Shown piece by piece: positions 7,902 to 48,686 of a stretch of DNA of 64,000 nucleotides. Below the pieces are notes generated by a model. That model was not told where the DNA came from. It saw only the letters and a list, made by a program, of their open reading frames with translations, and searched no databases. This DNA comes from Neoarius graeffei (Eukaryota; Chordata; Actinopteri; Siluriformes; Ariidae): the NCBI RefSeq assembly GCF_027579695.1, contig NC_083592.1:30136961-30200960 (forward strand). Reading direction: 5' to 3'. How positions within the stretch are numbered: position 1 is the first letter of the stretch; every line of letters begins with the position of its first letter. The position numbers were made by a program, and so were the translations under genes.

Positions 7902-8937
7902 GGCTACATCCACACGACAATGGCAACGAGGTTTTATTAAACAAAATATCACGTCCACATGGACAACGGATCAGTAAAATATCAGGTACATATGGCAACG
8001 CAACGCTTGCTGAAAATGATGCAATATACATGCCACACCTCTACGTGCGCTGTAAGACGGTCCCATCGGAGACACCAGAACAATAGAAGAAGTAGGACGC
8101 ATGCGCATAAACCCCTTCTTCTACCCGGTGTGAAGCACTCAGGAACAAACACACAACAACAACAAGAAGATGGCTGCGACTACGCAAGGAAATCGTGCCT
8201 TCTGTGTGTACAAATTAGCTTTATTAGTGTGCATAGTTTTATATAACTTCTCATCTCATCTCATTATCTCTAGCCGCTTTATCCTTCTACAGGGTCGCAG
8301 GCAAGCTGGAGCCTATCCCAGCTGACTACGGGCGAAAGGCAGGGTACACCCTGGACAAGTCGCCAGGTCATCACAGGGCTGACACATAGACACAGACAAC
8401 CATTCACACTCACATTCACACCTATGGTCAATTTAGAGCCACCAGTTAACCTAACCTGCATGTCTTTGGACTGTGGGGGAAACCGGAGCACCCGGAGGAA
8501 ACCCACGCGGACACGGGGAGAACATGCAAACTCCACACAGAAAGGCCCTCGCCGGCCACGGGGCTCGAACCCGGACCATCTTGCTGTGAGGCGACAGTGC
8601 TAACCACTACACCACCGTGCCGCCTGGTTCAGTTCAGTTACTTGTTTATTTAAAAGAAAAGCTGTATACAAAAGTGAATGCAATGCAGTGGTTCATACAA
8701 AACAGCGAGAGTGCTGCTTGTTCTAGTCATGTGGTTGTGATGTCATCGTAAACAAATTCGTTCTACTCATCCAGACAACCTCGCAACGGTGCTGTTGCCA
8801 GATTTTTCCACTCTGGAACCCGTTCTCAAAAAATATCGTTTTGGGGCACCCAAAACGCCGGTGCCGTGTGGACTCCAGGCCAAAACAATAAATAATTTTA
8901 TCAGATTCACCTGAATCCGTTGCCGTGTGGACAGCCT
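7902..8937. mobile_element. Harbinger-like MITE, copy 1 (contains a SINE)
   Basis: The ends are ggctacatccacacgacaa and ccgttgccgtgtggacagcc, inverted relatives of each other and shared with the longer copy at 35505-36893. The outer about 190 bp on the left and about 220 bp on the right match that copy. The middle differs and holds SINE 8248-8624. The target duplication is unclear in this copy. Confidence 0.75.
8248..8624 (-). mobile_element. SINE A1 inside the Harbinger-like MITE
   Basis: Full-length minus-strand copy. The (GATGA)n-type tail reads ctcatctcatctcatt on the plus strand near 8250 and the head ends at caccgtgccgcc. It inserted after the MITE. Confidence 0.92.
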
Positions 8938-9789: not shown

Positions 9790-10174
9790 GGGCAGGACGG
9801 TGGTGTAGTGGTTAGCGCTGTCGCCTCACAGCAAGAAGGTCCGGGTTCGAGCCCCATGGCCGGCGAGGGCCTTTCTGTGTGGAGTTTGCATGTTCTCCCC
9901 GTGTCCGCGTGGGTTTCCTCCGGGTGCTCCGGTTTCCCCCACAGTCCAAAGACATGCAGGTTAGGTTAACTGGTGACTCTAAATTGAGCGTAGGTGTGAA
10001 TGTGAGTGTGAATGGTTGTCTGTGTCTATGTGTCAGCCCTGTGATGACCTGGTGACTTGTCCAGGGTGTACCCCGCCTTTCGCCCGTAGTCAGCTGGGAT
10101 AGGCTCCAGCTTGCCTGCGACCCTGTAGAACAGGATAAAGTGGCTAGAGATGATGAGATGAGATGAGATGAGAT
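9790..10174 (+). mobile_element. SINE A1
   Basis: Full-length plus-strand copy with head ggcaggacggtggtgtagtg and tail gatgagatgagatgagat. Approximate flanking target duplications are tacttacttag and tacctacttag. Confidence 0.93.
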
Positions 10175-10517: not shown

Positions 10518-10884
10518 GGCGGCACGGTGGTGTAGTGGTTAGCGCTGTCGCCTCACAGCAAGAAGGTCCGGGTTCGAGCCCCGTGGCCGGCGAGGGCCTT
10601 TCTGTGCGGAGTTTGCATGTTCTCCCCGTGTCCGCGTGGGTTTCCTCCGGGTGCTCCGGTTTCCCCCACAGTCCAAAGACATGCAGGTTAGGTTAACTGG
10701 TGACTCTAAATTGACCGTTGGTGTGAATGTGAGTGTGAATGGTTGTCTGTGTCTATGTGTCAGCCCTGTGATGACCTGGCGACTTGTCCAGGGTGCACCC
10801 CGCCTTTCGCCCGTAGTCAGCTGGGATAGGCTCCAGCTTGCCTGCGACCCTGTAGAAGGATAAAGCGGCTAGAGATAATGAGAT
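10518..10884 (+). mobile_element. SINE A1 inserted in a TA-rich stretch
   Basis: Full-length plus-strand copy, close to consensus, flanked on both sides by atatatata runs that served as, or expanded from, the target duplication. Confidence 0.93.
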
Positions 10885-12172: not shown

Positions 12173-12771
12173 TTACTTTGTCAGCACATCAATAAAACAA
12201 TCTTAGAAAAAAAGGGTTAAATCTAGAATGCTACAATCTGATGACTGTATGGTTAAAGCCCCAACACATATAGAATATAGAAGCACCCTTAAATATTATA
12301 TTATCTGTTATAATTTGAAAGCTCTATATTATAGGTTGAATGATCTATTTGATATAATGATCCTAGAATTCACATAGACGTCACTTAATGACACAGGGAA
12401 CACACTTGTATCCGAGAGTGTTATAAATAGTTAAATAGTGCTGTGCAGGCAGAGCATAATGTTTCACAAGGCTTAACCTTTCTCATTCTTTTTTACCCTC
12501 TTTATTTCCCTTGCAATAATAAGAGAAAGATCCAAAGCTGCATCCTGAACAATCTGCCTCTTTTACAAATTCTCTCTCTCTCTCTCTCTCTCTCCTGCTC
12601 TCGCTCTCTGTCTTTCTCGCTCCTACACACACTTTCTGTCTCATCGATCTTTACCACGCAGAGCTTATGTTTGGATAGTGTTTTGTAAATTTTCCCTTGG
12701 TCAGGAAGCCCTCTCTCTTCAGCACGGCTCCATGCAGAGATCAGCGCTGAAGTTAATGTGTTTAGTTTGGA
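12173..12771. other. AT-rich stretch with a CT microsatellite
   Basis: (CT)n occurs at about 12569-12594 followed by CT-rich sequence to 12645. No coding evidence. Confidence 0.6.
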
Positions 12772-12961
12772 CCCTTAGCAAAAAGAAGTTTATTCAAGTG
12801 TACTATGAGTATACTTATTTTTTACTAAAACTGAGGAAGTACCAGTATACTTGAAGTTGACTTTTTATAAACTATATTTTATATAGTTAAGAATAGTATA
12901 GTGAAGTATACTTGGCTTATACTGAAAAGTATAAACAAAAGTCTAAGACTAAGTACATTAA

Positions 12962-13661
12962 CACTACGTTCACACTGCAGGCTGAAGTGACTCAAATCCG
13001 ATTTTTTCGCCCATATGTGACCTGTATCCGATCTTTTATTGACAATATGAACGACACAGATCCGATTTTTTCAAATCCGACCCAGGCCGTTTGGATATGT
13101 GGTCCTAATTCCGATTCCTATCCGATCTTTTCATATGCGACTTCAGTCTGAACCGCCAGGTCGCATTCATCCGACTTACACGTCATCAACAAGCCACAAA
13201 CGTCACTATTCTGCGCTGAAGTAGGCGGCGGGTCTCTCAAAAAAAGTTACAACAACATGGCTTTGATGTTCCTTTGAACGGAGGTTGCAGTCACTACCCC
13301 GCAGAACGCCTGAGCCAAAACCCTTGCCCTCTTCCTTCTCAACCTCCTCCTTAACATCAGGCTATTGTGCATGTTCTGGCTCCGTCGCAACAACAACTGC
13401 ATCATCGCCAGGTACTCCATGCTGGCTACTGTCATACACAGGAAACTTTAGGTTACTTCCATAAACACTGGCCATGCTCACTGCGTGTGACGTCGTCGTA
13501 TCCTGCAATGCGCATGCGGAACACTTTTAGGTCGCTTTTCGTTCATACTGAGGATCACATACAAGTCGCATATATTTGTTAATGTGAATGACCTCACAAA
13601 AAAATCGGATTTCACAAAAAAATCGGAATTGAGCATTAAGCCTTGCAGTGTGAACGTAGTG
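12962..13661. mobile_element. Harbinger-like MITE (700 bp)
   Basis: It has perfect 18-bp inverted ends cactacgttcacactgca / tgcagtgtgaacgtagtg, flanked by TAA on each side (12959-12961, 13662-13664), the PIF/Harbinger-type 3-bp target. The interior has repeated tccgat motifs. A minus-strand Arg-rich frame near 13250-13435 has unknown meaning. Confidence 0.82.
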
Positions 13662-14025
13662 TAATACTAAGACTTACACTTATACTTTAAAAGGATAGTT
13701 CAGGATTTTTGACATGAATCTGTATGGCATCCCCATCAATAGTGTCGTGCAAACACACTGACTTACCCCTGACAGCATCCTGTGAGTCCAGTTCTTGTCC
13801 AGTTTTGGTCCAGACGAAAGTAGTCCGGCAAGTTTGTTGGGGTCACGAAAGTAAAACGTTTTTCGTCTCAAAACAGTATGTGTTCAAAAGAGTGATAGAT
13901 TTGCATCACAAAACCATTGCCAAATAAAAAGTCAGACCTCGAAATTGCTTGGCACTATTTTCTCTCCCTTCTTATCACTGCGCGCTGCCGCCAGGTGACA
14001 GCCACGGCTGTTTAATTCATTGTTT

Positions 14026-14787
14026 TAGTGATGGGAATTTCGGCTCTTTTTCAGGAGCCGCCTCTTTTGGCTCTTCTTCCTATAAGGAGCCGGCTCTTTC
14101 GGCTCCCAAACGGCTCCTGAGATTTTATTTTTGATTTAATTGCTGCAATTAACTAGTTAATTAATTACATTATTATTTATATTTTATCAATAGGATGTTT
14201 TCCATTTTATTTTTTAGTTTTTGTAGCCATTGTAAAGCTTTGTAAAGTATAGCAGTGTAACAATGTTCTAGCTATAGAAATAAAACTTACTTACCAATTA
14301 ATAAATTATTTTCTCACAAACATAATGCAAAACTGTGTTATATTACCAATATAAAACACACAGAAGACATCAACTGTTTATCCTTTATGGTTTTATTTCA
14401 CACTCGACCTTGAACAAAATGCCACAAAATAAATTATGAAGTATAAATCAGGCCTAAGAAACTATGAAGCAAAGTTGGAAATTATTTTAACAAACACAGA
14501 ACAATGTGCAACAAAATATGTGGCACCTTGAGCGCATGTAAAAAGAGAAAAAAGTGCCGCACTCTGCTCCACCAGTAATGAGAAGCCGCTGGAACAGCAA
14601 ATATGCTCCTGTTATAATGACTGCTGTCTCGTTGTATACCGCAGATTAATCTGGCCATGCCAAGGCGGTTGCCGACCGAACCTGGCAATTTATGAGCGAC
14701 AATTTATATCATGAGCTTTAGGAATTCACGGCAACAAAACAATGATCATGGTTGTCAAATAGACAATCATCCTTCAGCTGAGCTGAA

Positions 14788-14829
<42 letters not shown>

Positions 14830-14951
14830 CACCTAAGGACAAAAAACTGATTCGGTTCCCCAACTCGGCTCCCACCGAAGAGCCGGCTCCCGTCGTTCAC
14901 TTCAAAGAGCCGGCTCTTTGAACCAGATCGTTCGCGACCAACACATCACTA
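14026..14951. mobile_element. Nonautonomous hAT element
   Basis: Short inverted ends tagtgatg (14026-14033) and catcacta (14944-14951). The 8-bp target duplication cattgttt lies at 14018-14025 and again at 17793-17800. The right copy was pushed about 2.8 kb away by the Penelope insertion. Subterminal sequence repeats gagccggctctt in both orientations. A (CT)n tract occurs at 14791-14826. No transposase frame. Confidence 0.85.
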
Positions 14952-15012
14952 CATTTAGTTAGTTTTTTTTTTTTTTCTTTTTTATCAGACATCTAATTTT
15001 TGGGTTTGTTTA

Positions 15013-15052
15013 CCTGACATGTTTCGACGTACAACTTCCGTCTTCCTCAGAG
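15013..15052 (-). ncRNA. Hammerhead-like ribozyme motif (3-prime copy)
   Basis: Minus-strand twin of the motif at 17655-17695, in the 3-prime terminal part of the Penelope element. It has the order ctgagga, GACG stem, loop, CGTC, gaaac, gtc. Penelope elements are known to carry minimal hammerheads in their terminal repeats. The core has G where CUGAUGA expects U, so activity is uncertain. Confidence 0.4.
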
Positions 15053-15137
15053 TGTCACCGGATGTTAATTGGTGACGCATCTTTTATCAGCTGATGTTTC
15101 CGAAGGCGTGGCCTTCCTGTCTGGTTTGACAGGTCGG

Positions 15138-17297
15138 TCACGCCTTATACTGTCTGTTCGTCCCCTGCAAGATGGCACTCCAGGTATGGGAGAGCATGTA
15201 CGCTCCCTCATCCCGGTTGATGGTCCTCGGGCTTCGCTTACGGATCTCTATGGCCTCCCTGATCCAGCGCTGATGTTTGTTATCTTCTGTGCGGATGACT
15301 CTGGCAATCCCCCAGTCCATAATGTGATTTTCCCTTTTACAGTGATCTGTTATAGCTGACTTATAATTTTCCTGTTGTGCCTTTTCTTTTATTGTTCGGG
15401 TTTGTCTTGTAGCTGTCTCCTTTTCGCACTCTTTCTTATGTTCATGTTTTCTTGTGTTGAAACTCCTTCCTGTCTCCCCAATATAAGTTTTATTGCATAA
15501 TTTACATGGAATCTCATATATGGTGTTGCATCTGTTGTCCGGATGTATTCTGTCTTTGGGATGAACCAGGATCTGACGGAGTGTTGTGTGTGGTTTGACA
15601 GGTGTGTTAATGTTGTGTTTCCTCATTACTCTTTGAATGCGTTCAGTTATTCCCCTGATGTATGGTAATGTAACTACTCCCCTGTGTTCTTGTTTGTTAG
15701 TTTGTTTTTTCTCTTTCTTCTGTGTTTTGTTGTTCTTAACCTGTTCCACCCCTTTGGATATTGCCCATTGTGGATATTGACATGCCTTCAGTGCGTGTTG
15801 TATATGTTGTTCCTCCTGTTCTTTGTCCTGTGGATCTGTAATTATTGCTGTGCGTTCATGTAATGTTCTAACTACGGATATTTTGTGCATTATGGGGTGT
15901 TCGGAAGTCCAGTTTAAATATTGGTCGGTGTGTGTGGGTTTTCTGTGTACTTTTATTTTGATGTCCCCATCTTCTGTGTGTTGTATTTTTAAATCCAAAA
16001 ATGCTATTGACTGCTCTGTTTCTTCTTCATGTGTAAATCTTATATTGCCGGTATTGTCTATGGTGTTAAGATGGTCGGTGAGTTGTTGAGTGTGTCCCCT
16101 CTTTACTTTTTCCAATATGTCGTCCACATACCGTTTCCAGAGTGTTGGCCTGTATTCCGCTGGTATTGTAGTGAGTGCTTTCTGCTCCAGATCTTCCATG
16201 AAAAAGCCGCACATGATGGCTGATAGTGGGTCTCCCATGGCAAAACCTTCCTTCTGTCTGTAGATTGTATTCCTGAACTGAAAGTATGTGGATGTGGCGA
16301 TGAATTGAAGGAGCTGAGTGATGTCTTGTACGGTGAGGTTTGTGCGTTTCTTGAGCGTCCTGTCTGTTTTTAATTTGTCTTGTACTATCTGTATGGTGGC
16401 TTCCGTGGGTGTTCTGGTGAAAAGAGATATGACATCGTGTGAAATGAAAACTTCATCTTGCTGCATTTTGATGTTTTTTAGTTCTTCTGCCAGATGTTTT
16501 GAGTTTTTGCAGTGTTGGTCTGTGAGTCCTAGTAATGGTTTAATTATTTTGGTGAGTGCTTTTGATAAGTTGTATGTGACCGAACCAATGCTATCTACTA
16601 TGGGGCGTAATGGTGTTCCTGGTTTGTGTATTTTTGGTGTACCGTAAATCCTGGGGATGACATTGGCTGTGGGTACTAAATGATTGTAATCCTGCTTATC
16701 TATTTTATTTTCATCGAGTAGTGGTTTTAGTAGTGCTTTAAGTTTCTTTTTCTTGTCTTCTGTTGGGTCTTTTTTTAATATTTCAAATGCGTTGTCGCTG
16801 AGTAATTCATTCATTTTTCGTTCATATTCATCAGTGTCCATAATAACTGTTGTTCTGCCTTTATCTGCTGGGAGGATTGTGATATCTTTATTTTTAGCTA
16901 ATGTTTTCATGGCTTTGGCTTCCTGTTTTGTGATGTTACTGGGTGGTGGTTTGGCCGTTTTCAAAATACCAGCTATTGCGTTTCTTAGTGCTGCTTTTTG
17001 TCCGTGATCCTGTATTTTCTCACATGCTAATTCAGTTGCCAGAATGAATTCATCGTGTGGTATATTGTTCGGTGTGACAGCGTAGTTGAGTCCTTTTGCT
17101 AGTATACTGCGTTCTGCTTGTGAGAGTTTGTACCTTGATATGTTATGAATCCATTTGTCGTTGATGTGTGCGTGCTCCGGTTCTGCCTTCTTTTTCTGTG
17201 CGATGAGTTTGTCCAGTTTTCGGATTTGTCGGGTTTTTGTCTCTGTGAATTCCTGTTCGTGTATGTCTGCCAAGTGTCCGTGTATTGCCATTTCCAT
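15138..17297 (-). CDS. Penelope-like reverse transcriptase with GIY-YIG endonuclease
   Basis: This 719-residue uninterrupted frame encodes the protein that copies element RNA and cuts the target. The N-terminal about 130 residues are Lys-rich. The RT region includes ILPADKGRTTVIMD (near 142), PRIYGTPKIHKPGTPLRPIV (near 214), the palm FISHDVISLFT, and catalytic YVDD near 390. The C-terminal GIY-YIG domain shows TIYEIPCKLCNKTYIGETGR near 595 and a His-rich segment RKHEHKKECE, with CNKTYIG as the YIG half. The protein ends HTWSAILQGTNRQYKA. The length suits an endonuclease-bearing Penelope element, so this copy may be coding-competent. Whether it is active cannot be judged. Confidence 0.93.
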   Translation of the reverse strand: MEMAIHGHLADIHEQEFTETKTRQIRKLDKLIAQKKKAEPEHAHINDKWIHNISRYKLSQAERSILAKGLNYAVTPNNIPHDEFILATELACEKIQDHGQKAALRNAIAGILKTAKPPPSNITKQEAKAMKTLAKNKDITILPADKGRTTVIMDTDEYERKMNELLSDNAFEILKKDPTEDKKKKLKALLKPLLDENKIDKQDYNHLVPTANVIPRIYGTPKIHKPGTPLRPIVDSIGSVTYNLSKALTKIIKPLLGLTDQHCKNSKHLAEELKNIKMQQDEVFISHDVISLFTRTPTEATIQIVQDKLKTDRTLKKRTNLTVQDITQLLQFIATSTYFQFRNTIYRQKEGFAMGDPLSAIMCGFFMEDLEQKALTTIPAEYRPTLWKRYVDDILEKVKRGHTQQLTDHLNTIDNTGNIRFTHEEETEQSIAFLDLKIQHTEDGDIKIKVHRKPTHTDQYLNWTSEHPIMHKISVVRTLHERTAIITDPQDKEQEEQHIQHALKACQYPQWAISKGVEQVKNNKTQKKEKKQTNKQEHRGVVTLPYIRGITERIQRVMRKHNINTPVKPHTTLRQILVHPKDRIHPDNRCNTIYEIPCKLCNKTYIGETGRSFNTRKHEHKKECEKETATRQTRTIKEKAQQENYKSAITDHCKRENHIMDWGIARVIRTEDNKHQRWIREAIEIRKRSPRTINRDEGAYMLSHTWSAILQGTNRQYKA

Positions 17298-17405
17298 TTC
17301 CTTGTTTTGGGGAAACCGGCGTTTGAAAGTTTCCGTCTCTCTGTGTAGTTCGCTGTTGATATTATTTAGTTTATCCGTTGTGCACCGTATCCGTTCTTTT
17401 CTTCA

Positions 17406-17745
17406 GAGTCATCCGCACAGAAGATAACAAACATCAGCGCTGGATCAGGGAGGCCATAGAGATCCGTAAGCGAAGCCCGAGGACCATCAACCGGGATGAG
17501 GGAGCGTACATGCTCTCCCATACCTGGAGTGCCATCTTGCAGGGGACGAACAGACAGTATAAGGCGTGACCGACCTGTCAAACCAGACAGGAAGGCCACG
17601 CCTTCGGAAACATCAGCTGATAAAAGATGCGTCACCAATTAACATCCGGTGACACTCTGAGGAAGACGGAAGTTGTACGTCGAAACATGTCAGGTAAACA
17701 AACCCAAAAATTAGATGTCTGATAAAAAAGAAAAAAAAAAACTAA
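17406..17745 (+). repeat. Inverted partial copy of the Penelope 3-prime end
   Basis: The plus strand repeats the end of the Penelope gene (RTEDNKHQRWIREAIEIRK onwards to the stop at about 17569) and its 3-prime UTR, mirroring 14957-15303. The two copies look almost identical. The partial coding piece has no start of its own and is not a separate gene. Confidence 0.92.
17655..17695 (+). ncRNA. Hammerhead-like ribozyme motif (5-prime copy)
   Basis: Positions: ctga 17657-17660, gga 17661-17663, stem II GACG 17665-17668 pairing with CGTC 17678-17681, gaaa 17682-17685, very short stem III AC/GT, and candidate cleavage gtc 17689-17691. Stem I pairing is poor in this reading. The layout matches the minimal hammerheads described in Penelope-like elements, but the CUGAUGA box is CUGAGGA. 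Confidence 0.42.
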
Positions 17746-18362
17746 CTATATATAATATAAGACATAATGAACGTAATCGAAAGACATCACTACATTGTTT
17801 ACTGCTAGCAAAGTTAGCGACAACATGTCTGACTACGACGGTGAAATGTGTGCGGAGATTCAGCCACATCTTTGTTGCTACAGCCTGGATAGTCGCAAGT
17901 GCGCACCATTTTCACAAATATATTATTGTATAGGTTATAGAAGGTGATAAATTTGTCACTGTTCTTGCTCTCAAATTAGCTTGTTAGCGCCGCTGATCTG
18001 AACTCCTAATCACTGCCAAACAATGGGAAAGGTGTTGATTCCTGCGCAGATGTCAACATGACAGCGCGCAGTGATACTGAGGAAGAGAAAATAGTGCCAA
18101 GCGATTTCGAGGTCTGACTTTTTATTTGGCAACGGTTTTGTGATGCAAATACATCACTCTTTTGAACACATACTGTTTTGAGACGAAAAACGTTTTACTT
18201 TCGTGACCCCAACAAACTTGCCGGACTACTTTCGTCTGGACCAAAACTGGACAAGAACTGGACTCACAGGATGCTGTCAGGGGTAAGTCAGTGTGTTTGC
18301 ACGACACTATTGATGGGGATGCCATACAGATTCATGTCAAAAATCCCGAACTATCCCTTTAA

Positions 18363-19189
18363 TACTAAAACTTATACTTTAGTATACTTTTTACGTTTTT
18401 CTGCCACAAAGTATTAATACTTAGTATATCTTGCTCCAAGTGCATAATAAGGTCAAGTCATTGACTCATGCTTAACATTTAATTTATATATTAATATAAT
18501 ATAATGCTGGAGTTTAAAACTTTACAGTATATAGTATGTGTGCTCAATTGCATTATCTTTATGTACCTTAAAATCATACACAAAAACAGAAAAACTTTTG
18601 ACTTGACTTTATTGATCAAGCTAGTCCCTGTCATAAGGGTTTGGCAGTGGTGTTATGTACATAGCGTCAGCTGTTTCAACAAGAACACATTTTGTTTTGA
18701 TCATGTCAGGCCAGACAGCATTAACAGTTTCAGGTTTTTTTTAACAACATATAGGAAAGTACTTTGTACATTGATTTGTGAATCTTTACATACAGGGCTG
18801 TCTAATCATAAAAGTACAGTACAGATTTTGTTTCTATCTAGTTATTTATTTTTGGTCCCAAAGGTGTGCACTTTTCTTTTACGTTTTTTGACAAGGAAGG
18901 ACTTTAGTTCTCAGTTGAAGACGCTATGTTTACATTTTTACAAGCATATGCACAAGTTTTGCTTTAACACTTTTTACAAATAAGGATTTGATCTTGGAGA
19001 GACCATTATGTTTACATTTTTACATGCAAATGCGCACTTTTTCCTTTCATTTTCTCCAGTAAGGAAGGACTTGATTTCATAGGTCTTTGTTTTTGAAATG
19101 TTTGAAAATATATCAAACTTGTTTTCAACATTCTGTCTTGTGATTTTGTAAATGCATCACACTCTTGTGTACATACAGTATGAATAAAC
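18363..19189. other. Interior of the AGTATAC element, no genes
   Basis: AT-rich. Two related segments (catgcacttttcttttacg-like near 18870 and gcgcactttttcctttcat near 19031) suggest an old internal duplication. No coding signal. Confidence 0.5.
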
Positions 19190-19676
19190 TTTAAGAATAC
19201 TTTAAGGAGTATATTTCCAGTATATAAATAGTAAGCTACAAGTAATATGCCAAGCAAACTTAAAGTATACAGTAACAAGTAAACTAGTGAAATAACCAAC
19301 GCTTATAACAGTATACTTAAAGTATACAATAATAAACTAAAAATAGGGACTCGAAGTATATAACTAGTACAATGGCAGTATATCGATAAGTGTACTTGTG
19401 GTATACTTTAAGCATACGAGAGGGATATACCAAGTACATTGATAGTATATAGATGAGTGTACTTGTGGTATACTTTAAAGTGTACTTTTGCAAACTTAAA
19501 ATGAACTTTAAAGTATACTTTTATAAACTTGAAATGTTCCAATTTAGTCCGAAAAAGTATTAAATTTGTATACTTTCTAGTACACTAAAAGTACATGGTC
19601 TGTAGTATACTTGCTATACTTATACTGAAGCATACTTAATAAAATGAACTTTAAGTATACTACTTTTTGCTAAGGG
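19190..19676. repeat. Dense array of agtatac/gtatact motifs
   Basis: Agtatac or its reverse complement recurs every 15-40 bp, often as actttaaagtatact palindromes. The spacing is irregular, so this is not a simple tandem satellite. Confidence 0.8.
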
Positions 19677-20191
19677 GAGCCCCAAAAATGAAAATGGAGG
19701 GATTAGTGGAAGGTAAATCTTGTACTATCCAGACAAAGCTGCAGGTGATACGAATCAGAATATTAAAACATTTCTCCTCTATTACTTGAGAAGATGAGCT
19801 CAAAATTTGTTCCCTTGAATTCTCAAATCTGATTAGTTCGAAAGTGTTAATTAATTTTCAACAGCAGCATGTCACGACAATAATTCACAATAATTCACAG
19901 GTTTATATTAACACTGTTAGAAATAGCAGTACAGTAGGAGTCAATTTCTGTCCCCTAAGGTACACTCTACACTAATGTACCCATGAGGACACATTAGTGG
20001 ACCTCACGGTAACGATGTGTACCTTTTTAGGGCCAAACAGGTACATATATGTTCCCAAGCAGTATATAAAGGGTACAAATACAGTGGTGCTTGAAAGTTT
20101 GTGAACCTTCTAGAATTTTCTATATTTCTGCATAAATATGACCTCAAACATCATCAGATTTTCACACAAGTCCTAAAAGTAGATAAAGAGA

Positions 20192-22419: not shown

Positions 22420-22797
22420 GGCAGCATGGTGGTGTAGTGGTTAGCACTGTCGCCTCACAGCAAGAAGGTCCTGGGTTTGAGCCCAGCGGCCGATGAGGGC
22501 CTTTCTGTGTGAAGTTGGCATGCTCTCCCTGTGTCTGCGTGGGTTTCCTCCGGGTGCTCCAGTTTCCCCCACAGTCCAAAGGCATGCAGGTTAGGTTAAT
22601 TGGTGGCTCTAAATTGACCGTAGGTGTGAATGTGAGTGTGAATGGTTGTTTGTCCCTGTGTGTTAGCCCTGCGATGACCTGGCGACTTGTCCAGGGTGTA
22701 CCCCGTCTCTCGCCTATAGTCAGCTGGGATAGGCTCCAGCTTGCCTGCGACCCTGTAAAACAGGATAAGCGGCTATAGATAATGCATGGATGGATAG
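22420..22797 (+). mobile_element. SINE A2 inside Tc1
   Basis: Full-length plus-strand copy with a catggatggatagat tail. The Tc1 3-prime UTR is interrupted at ggatcattttcc and resumes at gatctttttcct, giving an approximate target duplication. Confidence 0.92.
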
Positions 22798-30480: not shown

Positions 30481-30859
30481 GGGCGGCACGGTGGTGTAGT
30501 GGTTAGCGCTGTCGCCTCACAGCAAGAAGGTCCTGGGTTCGAGCCCCGGGGCTGGCGAGGGCCTTTCTGTGCGGAGTTTGCATGTTCTCCCTGTGTCCGC
30601 GTGGGTTTCCTCCGGGTGCTCCGGTTTCCCCCACAGTCCAAAGACATGCAGGTTAGGTTAACTGGTGACTCTAAATTGACCGTAGGTGTGAATGTGAGTG
30701 TGAATGGTTGTCTGTGTCTATGTGTCAGCCCTGTGATGACCTGGCGACTTGTCCAGGGTGTACCCCGCCTTTCGCCCATAGTCAGCTGGGATAGGCTCCA
30801 GCTTGCCTGCGACCCTGTAGAAGGATAAAGCGGCTAGAGATAATGAGATGAGATGAGAT
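30481..30859 (+). mobile_element. SINE A1 inside the Tc1-type relic
   Basis: Near-consensus plus-strand copy with tail gagatgagatgagat. Target duplication tactgggattt on both sides. Confidence 0.95.
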
Positions 30860-48304: not shown

Positions 48305-48686
48305 CTCATCTCATCTCATCTCATTATCTCTACCCGCTTTATCCTTCTACAGGGTCGCAGGCAAGCTGGAGCCTATCCCAGCTGACTATGGGCGAAAGGC
48401 GGGGTACACCCTGGACAAGTCGCCAGGTCATCACAGGGCTGACACATAGACACAGACAACCATTCACACTCACATTCACACCTACGGTCAATTTAGAGTC
48501 ACCAGTTAACCTAACCTGCATGTCTTTGGACTGTGGGGGAAACCGGAGCACCCGGAGGAAACCCACGCGGACACGGGGAGAACATGCAAACTCCGCACAG
48601 AAAGGCCCTCGCCGGCCCCGGGGCTCGAACCCAGGACCTTCTTGCTGTGAGGCGACAGCGCTAACCACTACACCACCGTGCCGCCC
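48305..48686 (-). mobile_element. SINE A1 with exact target duplication
   Basis: Near-consensus minus-strand copy flanked by actttcttaggat (48292-48304 and from 48687). Confidence 0.96.

Follow-up and report, generated by a model that had tools for sequence, protein, structure and literature searches.

A block of mobile elements nested in one another lies in a 64,000-nucleotide stretch of the Neoarius graeffei genome (the window; G000:C25:30136961-30200960). An outer DNA transposon, hit by a miniature inverted-repeat transposable element (MITE), encloses an element bordered by TTAA, which in turn holds a hAT element and a Penelope-like element (Table 1). The locus raises the question of the order in which these layers arrived, and of how the Penelope-like element came to have its 3' end a second time, in inverted orientation. 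We found that the nest is real, that it is ordinary for a transposon-rich genome, and that the order of arrival given in a preliminary description of the block has to be corrected in one step. The most useful lead comes from the Penelope-like layer, in which readable insertions of two families each bear a single short tail; the history of the hAT as a passenger is also worthwhile.

Order of arrival of the layers

The element ends, inverted repeats and target duplications named in the preliminary description were all present when the sequence was checked letter by letter. Searches covered the whole assembly (2.34 Gb, 38 contigs), and the best 40 matches were scored for each of the outer element's right part, the left arm of the TTAA element, the hAT, the MITE and the Penelope-like element. 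Relatives without the MITE, the TTAA element, the hAT or the Penelope-like insertion were found, confirming that distinct mobile elements are nested in one another. From relatives of the outer element, 9 pieces of the left part and 7 right ends were fetched. The TTAA site carried a single TTAA in 8/9 relatives (L062 lacks that repeat unit). The MITE site was likewise empty, with a single TAA, in 8/9 (L066 lacks that part), so the MITE remains, as first described, an independent insertion into the outer element. The ends of the hAT, TAGTGATG and CATCACTA, adjoin the two copies of CATTGTTT, and the 8-bp duplication together with the short inverted ends fits a hAT. An 8-mer was repeated at the hAT spacing in 4 of 200,000 random draws, and within the window just one 13-mer recurred at the Penelope spacing, showing that these target duplications did not arise by chance.

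The step to be corrected concerns the hAT, which the preliminary description had entering the TTAA element at this locus. Copies were collected with the left arm of the TTAA element (40 matches scored of 1,190 candidates; 20 fetched). The complete composite, consisting of left arm, CATTGTTT, hAT, CATTGTTT, right part and right arm, was found between different flanks and without a Penelope-like element there in 12/20 fetched copies. TTAA stood at both ends in 11/12 of these composites; in L023 a base was changed there and at the hAT end. The remaining 8/20 had the left hAT border and a different interior. The right border with the hAT was present at 229 places including the window (up to 1 mismatch), and the hAT-free site with one CATTGTTT at 158 places (up to 2 mismatches); the reversed control gave 0 in both searches. 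Among the 40 scored hAT matches, including the window, 38 started exactly where the duplicated flank begins, and 37 extended to the last base of the query. Thus the closest relatives of this hAT lie almost only inside the composite. We conclude that the hAT entered a TTAA element elsewhere, that the carrier then spread it, and that it arrived here as a passenger.

A second left hAT border, CATTGTTTAC joined to TAGTGATG in place of CATTGTTT joined to TAGTGATG, was seen in 7/20 copies (L013, L015, L017, L019, L026, L027 and L028). This border was traced to L076 (648-1613), where a related hAT with a different interior has TTGTTTAC on either side. Its own duplication marks it as another hAT insertion into the same TTAA family, 2 bp away from the one in the window. 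Separately, a TTAA-bordered insertion starting AGGAATACGCC lies within the hAT of the variant composites L002, L006 and L007.

The junction between the hAT and the Penelope-like element occurred once in the genome (up to 2 mismatches, 2.34 Gb). Together with the relatives that lack the Penelope-like element, this upholds the earlier view that it arrived after the hAT and TTAA layers. Compared with 19 other copies, the Penelope body of the window departed from the majority 15 times over 2,097 nt, 3 of these changes being private. The composite, compared with 10 copies (L012 and L023, which have extra inserts, were left out), had 19 differences in 1,835 nt, 12 of them private. The smaller number of private changes in the Penelope body fits a later arrival, although this comparison depends on sampling.

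For the TTAA element to have come first and the hAT to have entered it here, the hAT would have had to hit independently the very base at which an identical border exists at 229 places, 12/20 fetched copies being complete composites. The hAT duplication had been read correctly, and a hAT-free TTAA element exists at 158 places, so such a copy could have landed here; we nevertheless regard this order as very improbable. More improbable still, to the point of being negligible, is that the whole block is one composite element moving as a unit. Its two inner layers, the TTAA element and the hAT, do travel together, but the junction with the Penelope-like element is unique and the TTAA insertion is absent from 8/9 outer-element relatives. 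According to the preliminary description, recurrence of the whole block as a single repeat unit would speak against its order, and an allele with the hAT between its duplications and no Penelope-like element would confirm it. TTAA arms and hAT do recur together in different flanks, and the whole block does not; the hAT between its duplications without the Penelope-like element is present in the 12 fetched composites, at paralogous, not allelic, loci.

We consider the following history, as a whole, highly probable. A non-autonomous DNA transposon making 2-bp duplications would have inserted first, as the outer element. Elsewhere, a non-autonomous hAT would have entered a TTAA element of Kolobok-like type, at a point about 25 bp upstream of its internal open reading frame (ORF), and the composite would have spread to about 200 places via its TTAA ends with the hAT as passenger. 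One such ready-made pair would then have inserted into the outer element, at the TTAA at position 13687. The Penelope-like element would have cut the border of hAT and TTAA element with a 13-bp stagger, leaving a 5'-truncated copy joined to its own 3' end in inverted form, by the paired-start insertion considered below. Independently, the MITE would have entered a TAA of the outer element.

Several points weigh against this history. The empty sites come from other family copies within the same genome and are paralogous, not allelic; they concern the MITE, the TTAA element, the hAT and the Penelope-like element, and the outer element itself is not among them. A transposase was seen for no DNA layer; that of Kolobok was looked for only in L055 and L059, and those of the hAT, the outer element and the MITE were not searched for. 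Which transposase moved which DNA layer is an inference. In addition, L002 and L009 join the first hAT border to an interior seen in second-border copies, which suggests that the lines have recombined.

The direct count illustrates that an arrival order read at one locus can mislead, since an inner element may be the cargo of its carrier. A precedent for a passenger in a DNA transposon is MER6, a mariner MITE with a V-SINE segment (PMC6887750). In both cases a mobile element spread as a DNA-transposon passenger; here, by contrast, the passenger is a hAT and the carrier a Kolobok-like element in a fish genome.

One tail per Penelope-like insertion

In Penelope-like elements, one of the inverted pseudo-long terminal repeats (pLTRs) is described as bearing an optional tail (PMC3846280). 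It corresponds to the stretch between the two adjacent sites at which the anole Poseidon protein starts in purified form (PMC11167929). In the accessible parts of these two papers we found no count of tails per insertion; the older Penelope literature may contain the pattern.

The family of the window copy (family 1) is young, its 40 main matches showing 98-100% identity. Of these, 20 were read as loci and 17 from their end pieces, the remaining 3 being left unfetched. The query contained no element ends, hence there was no selection for tails. The tail pattern of the two families was read from L029-L048, L077-L114, L116 and L118-L135. Exactly one tail of about 36 nt was found in 35/35 two-ended readable copies of the 37 (34 by script; L041, in which the script found a single end, by reading); the count leaves out L042, which is without an inverted pLTR, and C12:3725805, whose second end was not in view. 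The tail was at the inverted end in 21 copies and at the ORF end in 14. If each end chose freely and equally, the odds of this result would be 1 in 2 to the 35th. The longest direct repeat between the flanks measured 13 nt in 17/34 copies and 11-17 nt in 31/34, the exceptions being L043 (9), L031 (6) and L046 (6, not at the ends).

A second family, collected with a query from L055 and 74% identical to the window Penelope where the two match, gave the same picture. Exactly one tail was present in 8/8 readable copies (10 pairs examined; L116 by eye), and the flank repeat was 13-15 nt in 7/8 and 7 nt in the C5 copy.

The one-tail pattern suggests a different RNA start site for each of the two target ends. 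We favour, with moderate confidence, a paired asymmetric two-ended insertion of Penelope-like elements, with staggered cuts about 13 bp apart and the two start sites divided one per end, hence the single 36-nt tail. The paired starts are a proposal built on the tail counts. In such a two-ended target-primed reverse transcription, each target end would prime its own complementary DNA (cDNA), both within one region of the element's RNA. The untailed cDNA would start at the nearer site and the tailed one about 36 nt beyond it, and the two would be joined, in the window copy at a 15-nt shared sequence. If true, a paired asymmetric reaction would account for the inverted pLTR layout and the 'optional' tail, as well as for the appearance of both start sites on both strands in the bulk in-vitro assay. 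With the anole protein, the strands did not differ in their start sites in bulk data (PMC11167929); as this result is bulk, an anticorrelation within single events remains compatible with it. A dimer of that protein was predicted, not shown, in the same source.

The main rival is that the far site serves as the start of both cDNAs and that joining or repair then trims one end, removing about 36 nt. The untailed ends are indeed somewhat ragged, their starts varying within TATAGTTAG and the following T run. Trimming would nonetheless need a coordinated rule of its own to leave exactly one tailed end in 35/35 and 8/8 copies, and the purified protein, with its two neighbouring start sites and the tail as the interval between them, also argues against it; we therefore think it unlikely, though a serious candidate. 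Some observations tell against the paired starts themselves or the origin of both arms from one RNA. Two pairs of family 2, set aside because they were taken not to be single insertions or not to show outer ends, are possible exceptions: the C15 pair has a tail on neither side and identical flanks, and the C21 pair has two tails, one per side, of which one looks internal. When the two arms were compared within insertions, the arm's own partner was closest in 4 of 5 long cases (more than 900 shared nt), with 1 tied, whereas among 5 short arms another locus was closer in 4, again with 1 tied. A single source RNA for both arms may thus be weakly favoured, by the long arms and not by the short ones; the comparison is weak because only long arms have enough sites.

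The flanks of the C15 pair (C15:20962657-20965643; L120 and L121) match each other perfectly, in inverted orientation, along all 101 fetched bases, which suggests a palindromic duplication.

The shared sequence at the window junction, CAGAGTCATCCGCAC, is 15 nt long and lies in the N-terminal region of other Penelope copies. All 19 other fetched copies continue past 17403 and have a further pLTR there, indicating that the 719-amino-acid frame of the window is N-terminally incomplete. The turn into the inverted arm at 17403 was found in the window copy alone among the 20 fetched. Judging by the match list, a copy at C14:72407451 (G000:C14:72407352-72409547) appears to turn at about the same point, with a longer inverted arm, perhaps hinting at a preferred joining point.

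The insertion mechanism of Penelope-like elements is poorly known, and one tail per readable insertion together with a near-fixed 13-bp stagger in two families provides a numerical pattern that can be tested in the existing in-vitro system. The window element resembles the Penelope/Poseidon type in its ORF with reverse transcriptase and GIY-YIG regions, its inverted pLTRs, its target duplication and a tail of 30-40 nt on one inverted pLTR (PMC3846280, PMC11167929). It differs in being 5'-truncated and in giving no hammerhead match in Rfam, and both families here stand apart by the near-constant 13-bp stagger and the tail on exactly one outer end.

Identity of the layers and surroundings

Table 1. 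Features of the nested block, in window coordinates
Feature	Position	Strand	Borders or basis
Outer element, a non-autonomous DNA transposon whose subterminal repeats are AGTATAC-rich	12772..19676		Ends and GA; 40 scored relatives of right part
MITE of 700 bp inside outer element	12962..13661		Flanking TAA duplication, 12959-12961 and 13662-13664
Kolobok-like TTAA element with long inverted arms, hAT inside	13691..18358		Arms 13687-13987 and 18062-18362, including TTAA
Non-autonomous hAT, passenger of TTAA element	14026..14951		CATTGTTT at 14018-14025 and, displaced, at 17793-17800
Penelope-like insertion	14956..17783	-	13-bp duplication ACATCACTACATT at 14943-14955 and 17784-17796
Penelope 3' end, left arm, untailed outer end	14966..15303	-	338 nt, 0 mismatches to right arm
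719-amino-acid frame, reverse transcriptase and GIY-YIG regions, N-terminally incomplete	15138..17297	-	Profile matches; comparison with other copies
Inverted copy of Penelope 3' end, right arm	17404..17741	+	Joined at 17403 through CAGAGTCATCCGCAC
36-nt tail, right outer end only	17748..17783	+	Left end without these nucleotides
First codons of KolX-like ORF of longer relatives, retained in composite	17825..17839	+	Comparison with L055:1545

TTAA stands at 13687-13690 and 18359-18362, and the arms of the element it borders are 301 nt long (297 without TTAA) and differ at 10 positions. After TTAA, the element termini read AAGG and AGGG. Kolobok termini follow a 5'-RR / YY-3' rule, in contrast to piggyBac (PMC9587614), and piggyBac was dropped as a candidate for this element, whose termini match the Kolobok rule better. 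A longer, hAT-free relative (L055) has a 153-amino-acid ORF (1545-2003) about 25 bp beyond the hAT site, with the motif CTCSKC...ECYCC. It matched the P2X7 C-terminal domain (P2RX7_C) weakly (15.9 bits, E 0.013, cut-off 23.5), and the match of another longer hAT-free TTAA element (L059, 2927-3304, minus strand) was weaker still, at 11.9 bits; comparison of the KolX-like ORF with PDB returned nothing meaningful. KolX, a P2X7-type protein, is reported in one Kolobok lineage (PMC9587614). The element is therefore called Kolobok-like, no transposase having been seen in L055 or L059; it shares with Kolobok the TTAA duplication and the form of the termini and perhaps also KolX, given the KolX-like ORF of its longer relatives, whose match to the P2X7 C-terminal domain is weak. 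The window copy differs from Kolobok in being non-autonomous and in carrying a hAT.

The ends of the outer element, CCCTTAGCAAAAAG (12772) and CTTTTTGCTAAGGG (19676), pair at 22/26 bases, and a repeat finder placed the inverted ends at 12772-12797 and 19651-19676. The duplication GA stands at 12770-12771 and 19677-19678. Relatives of the right part, the window aside, were 92-98% identical over their longest matches (40 scored of 871 candidates), and all 5/5 other loci with both ends visible had a 2-bp direct repeat of varying sequence (AC, CC, AT, AA and TA). Animal EnSpm/CACTA members make a 2-bp target duplication with no fixed sequence. The outer element is alike in this respect, in the window and at 5/5 loci, and we take EnSpm/CACTA to be a candidate for it, as an unconfirmed assignment; its termini, in contrast, are CCCTTAGC, not CACTA, and no transposase was seen, none having been searched for. 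Beyond the two known ends of the outer element and of the TTAA element, no additional ones were found within the window, and the whole block had no match in phage records.

The MITE has perfect 18-bp inverted repeats at its ends and forms a family separate from the outer element. Its 40 scored matches were 99-100% identical, 37/40 spanning all 700 bases. The 3-bp duplication (TAA) and the inverted ends are like those of PIF/Harbinger, for which a 3-bp target duplication is described (PMC2213677).

The 719-amino-acid frame of the Penelope-like element matched RVT_1 (25.3 bits, E 1.4e-05) and GIY-YIG (16.8 bits, E 0.0086) in the expected order, both under the Pfam cut-offs of 29.6 and 22.6, respectively; among viral contigs its ORF had no relative. 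The arm contains the hammerhead-like letters CTGAGGA...GAAAC, apparently with an extra A; the Rfam hammerhead search gave no match at E up to 1, and the fold of the arm was not special (z -0.43).

Elsewhere in the window, a repeat of about 380 bp with up to 99% identity occurs in many copies (1-282, 8249-8624, 9790-10168, 10518-10884, 22420-22796, 30482-30856, 48311-48686 and others), and by eye it looks like a short interspersed element.

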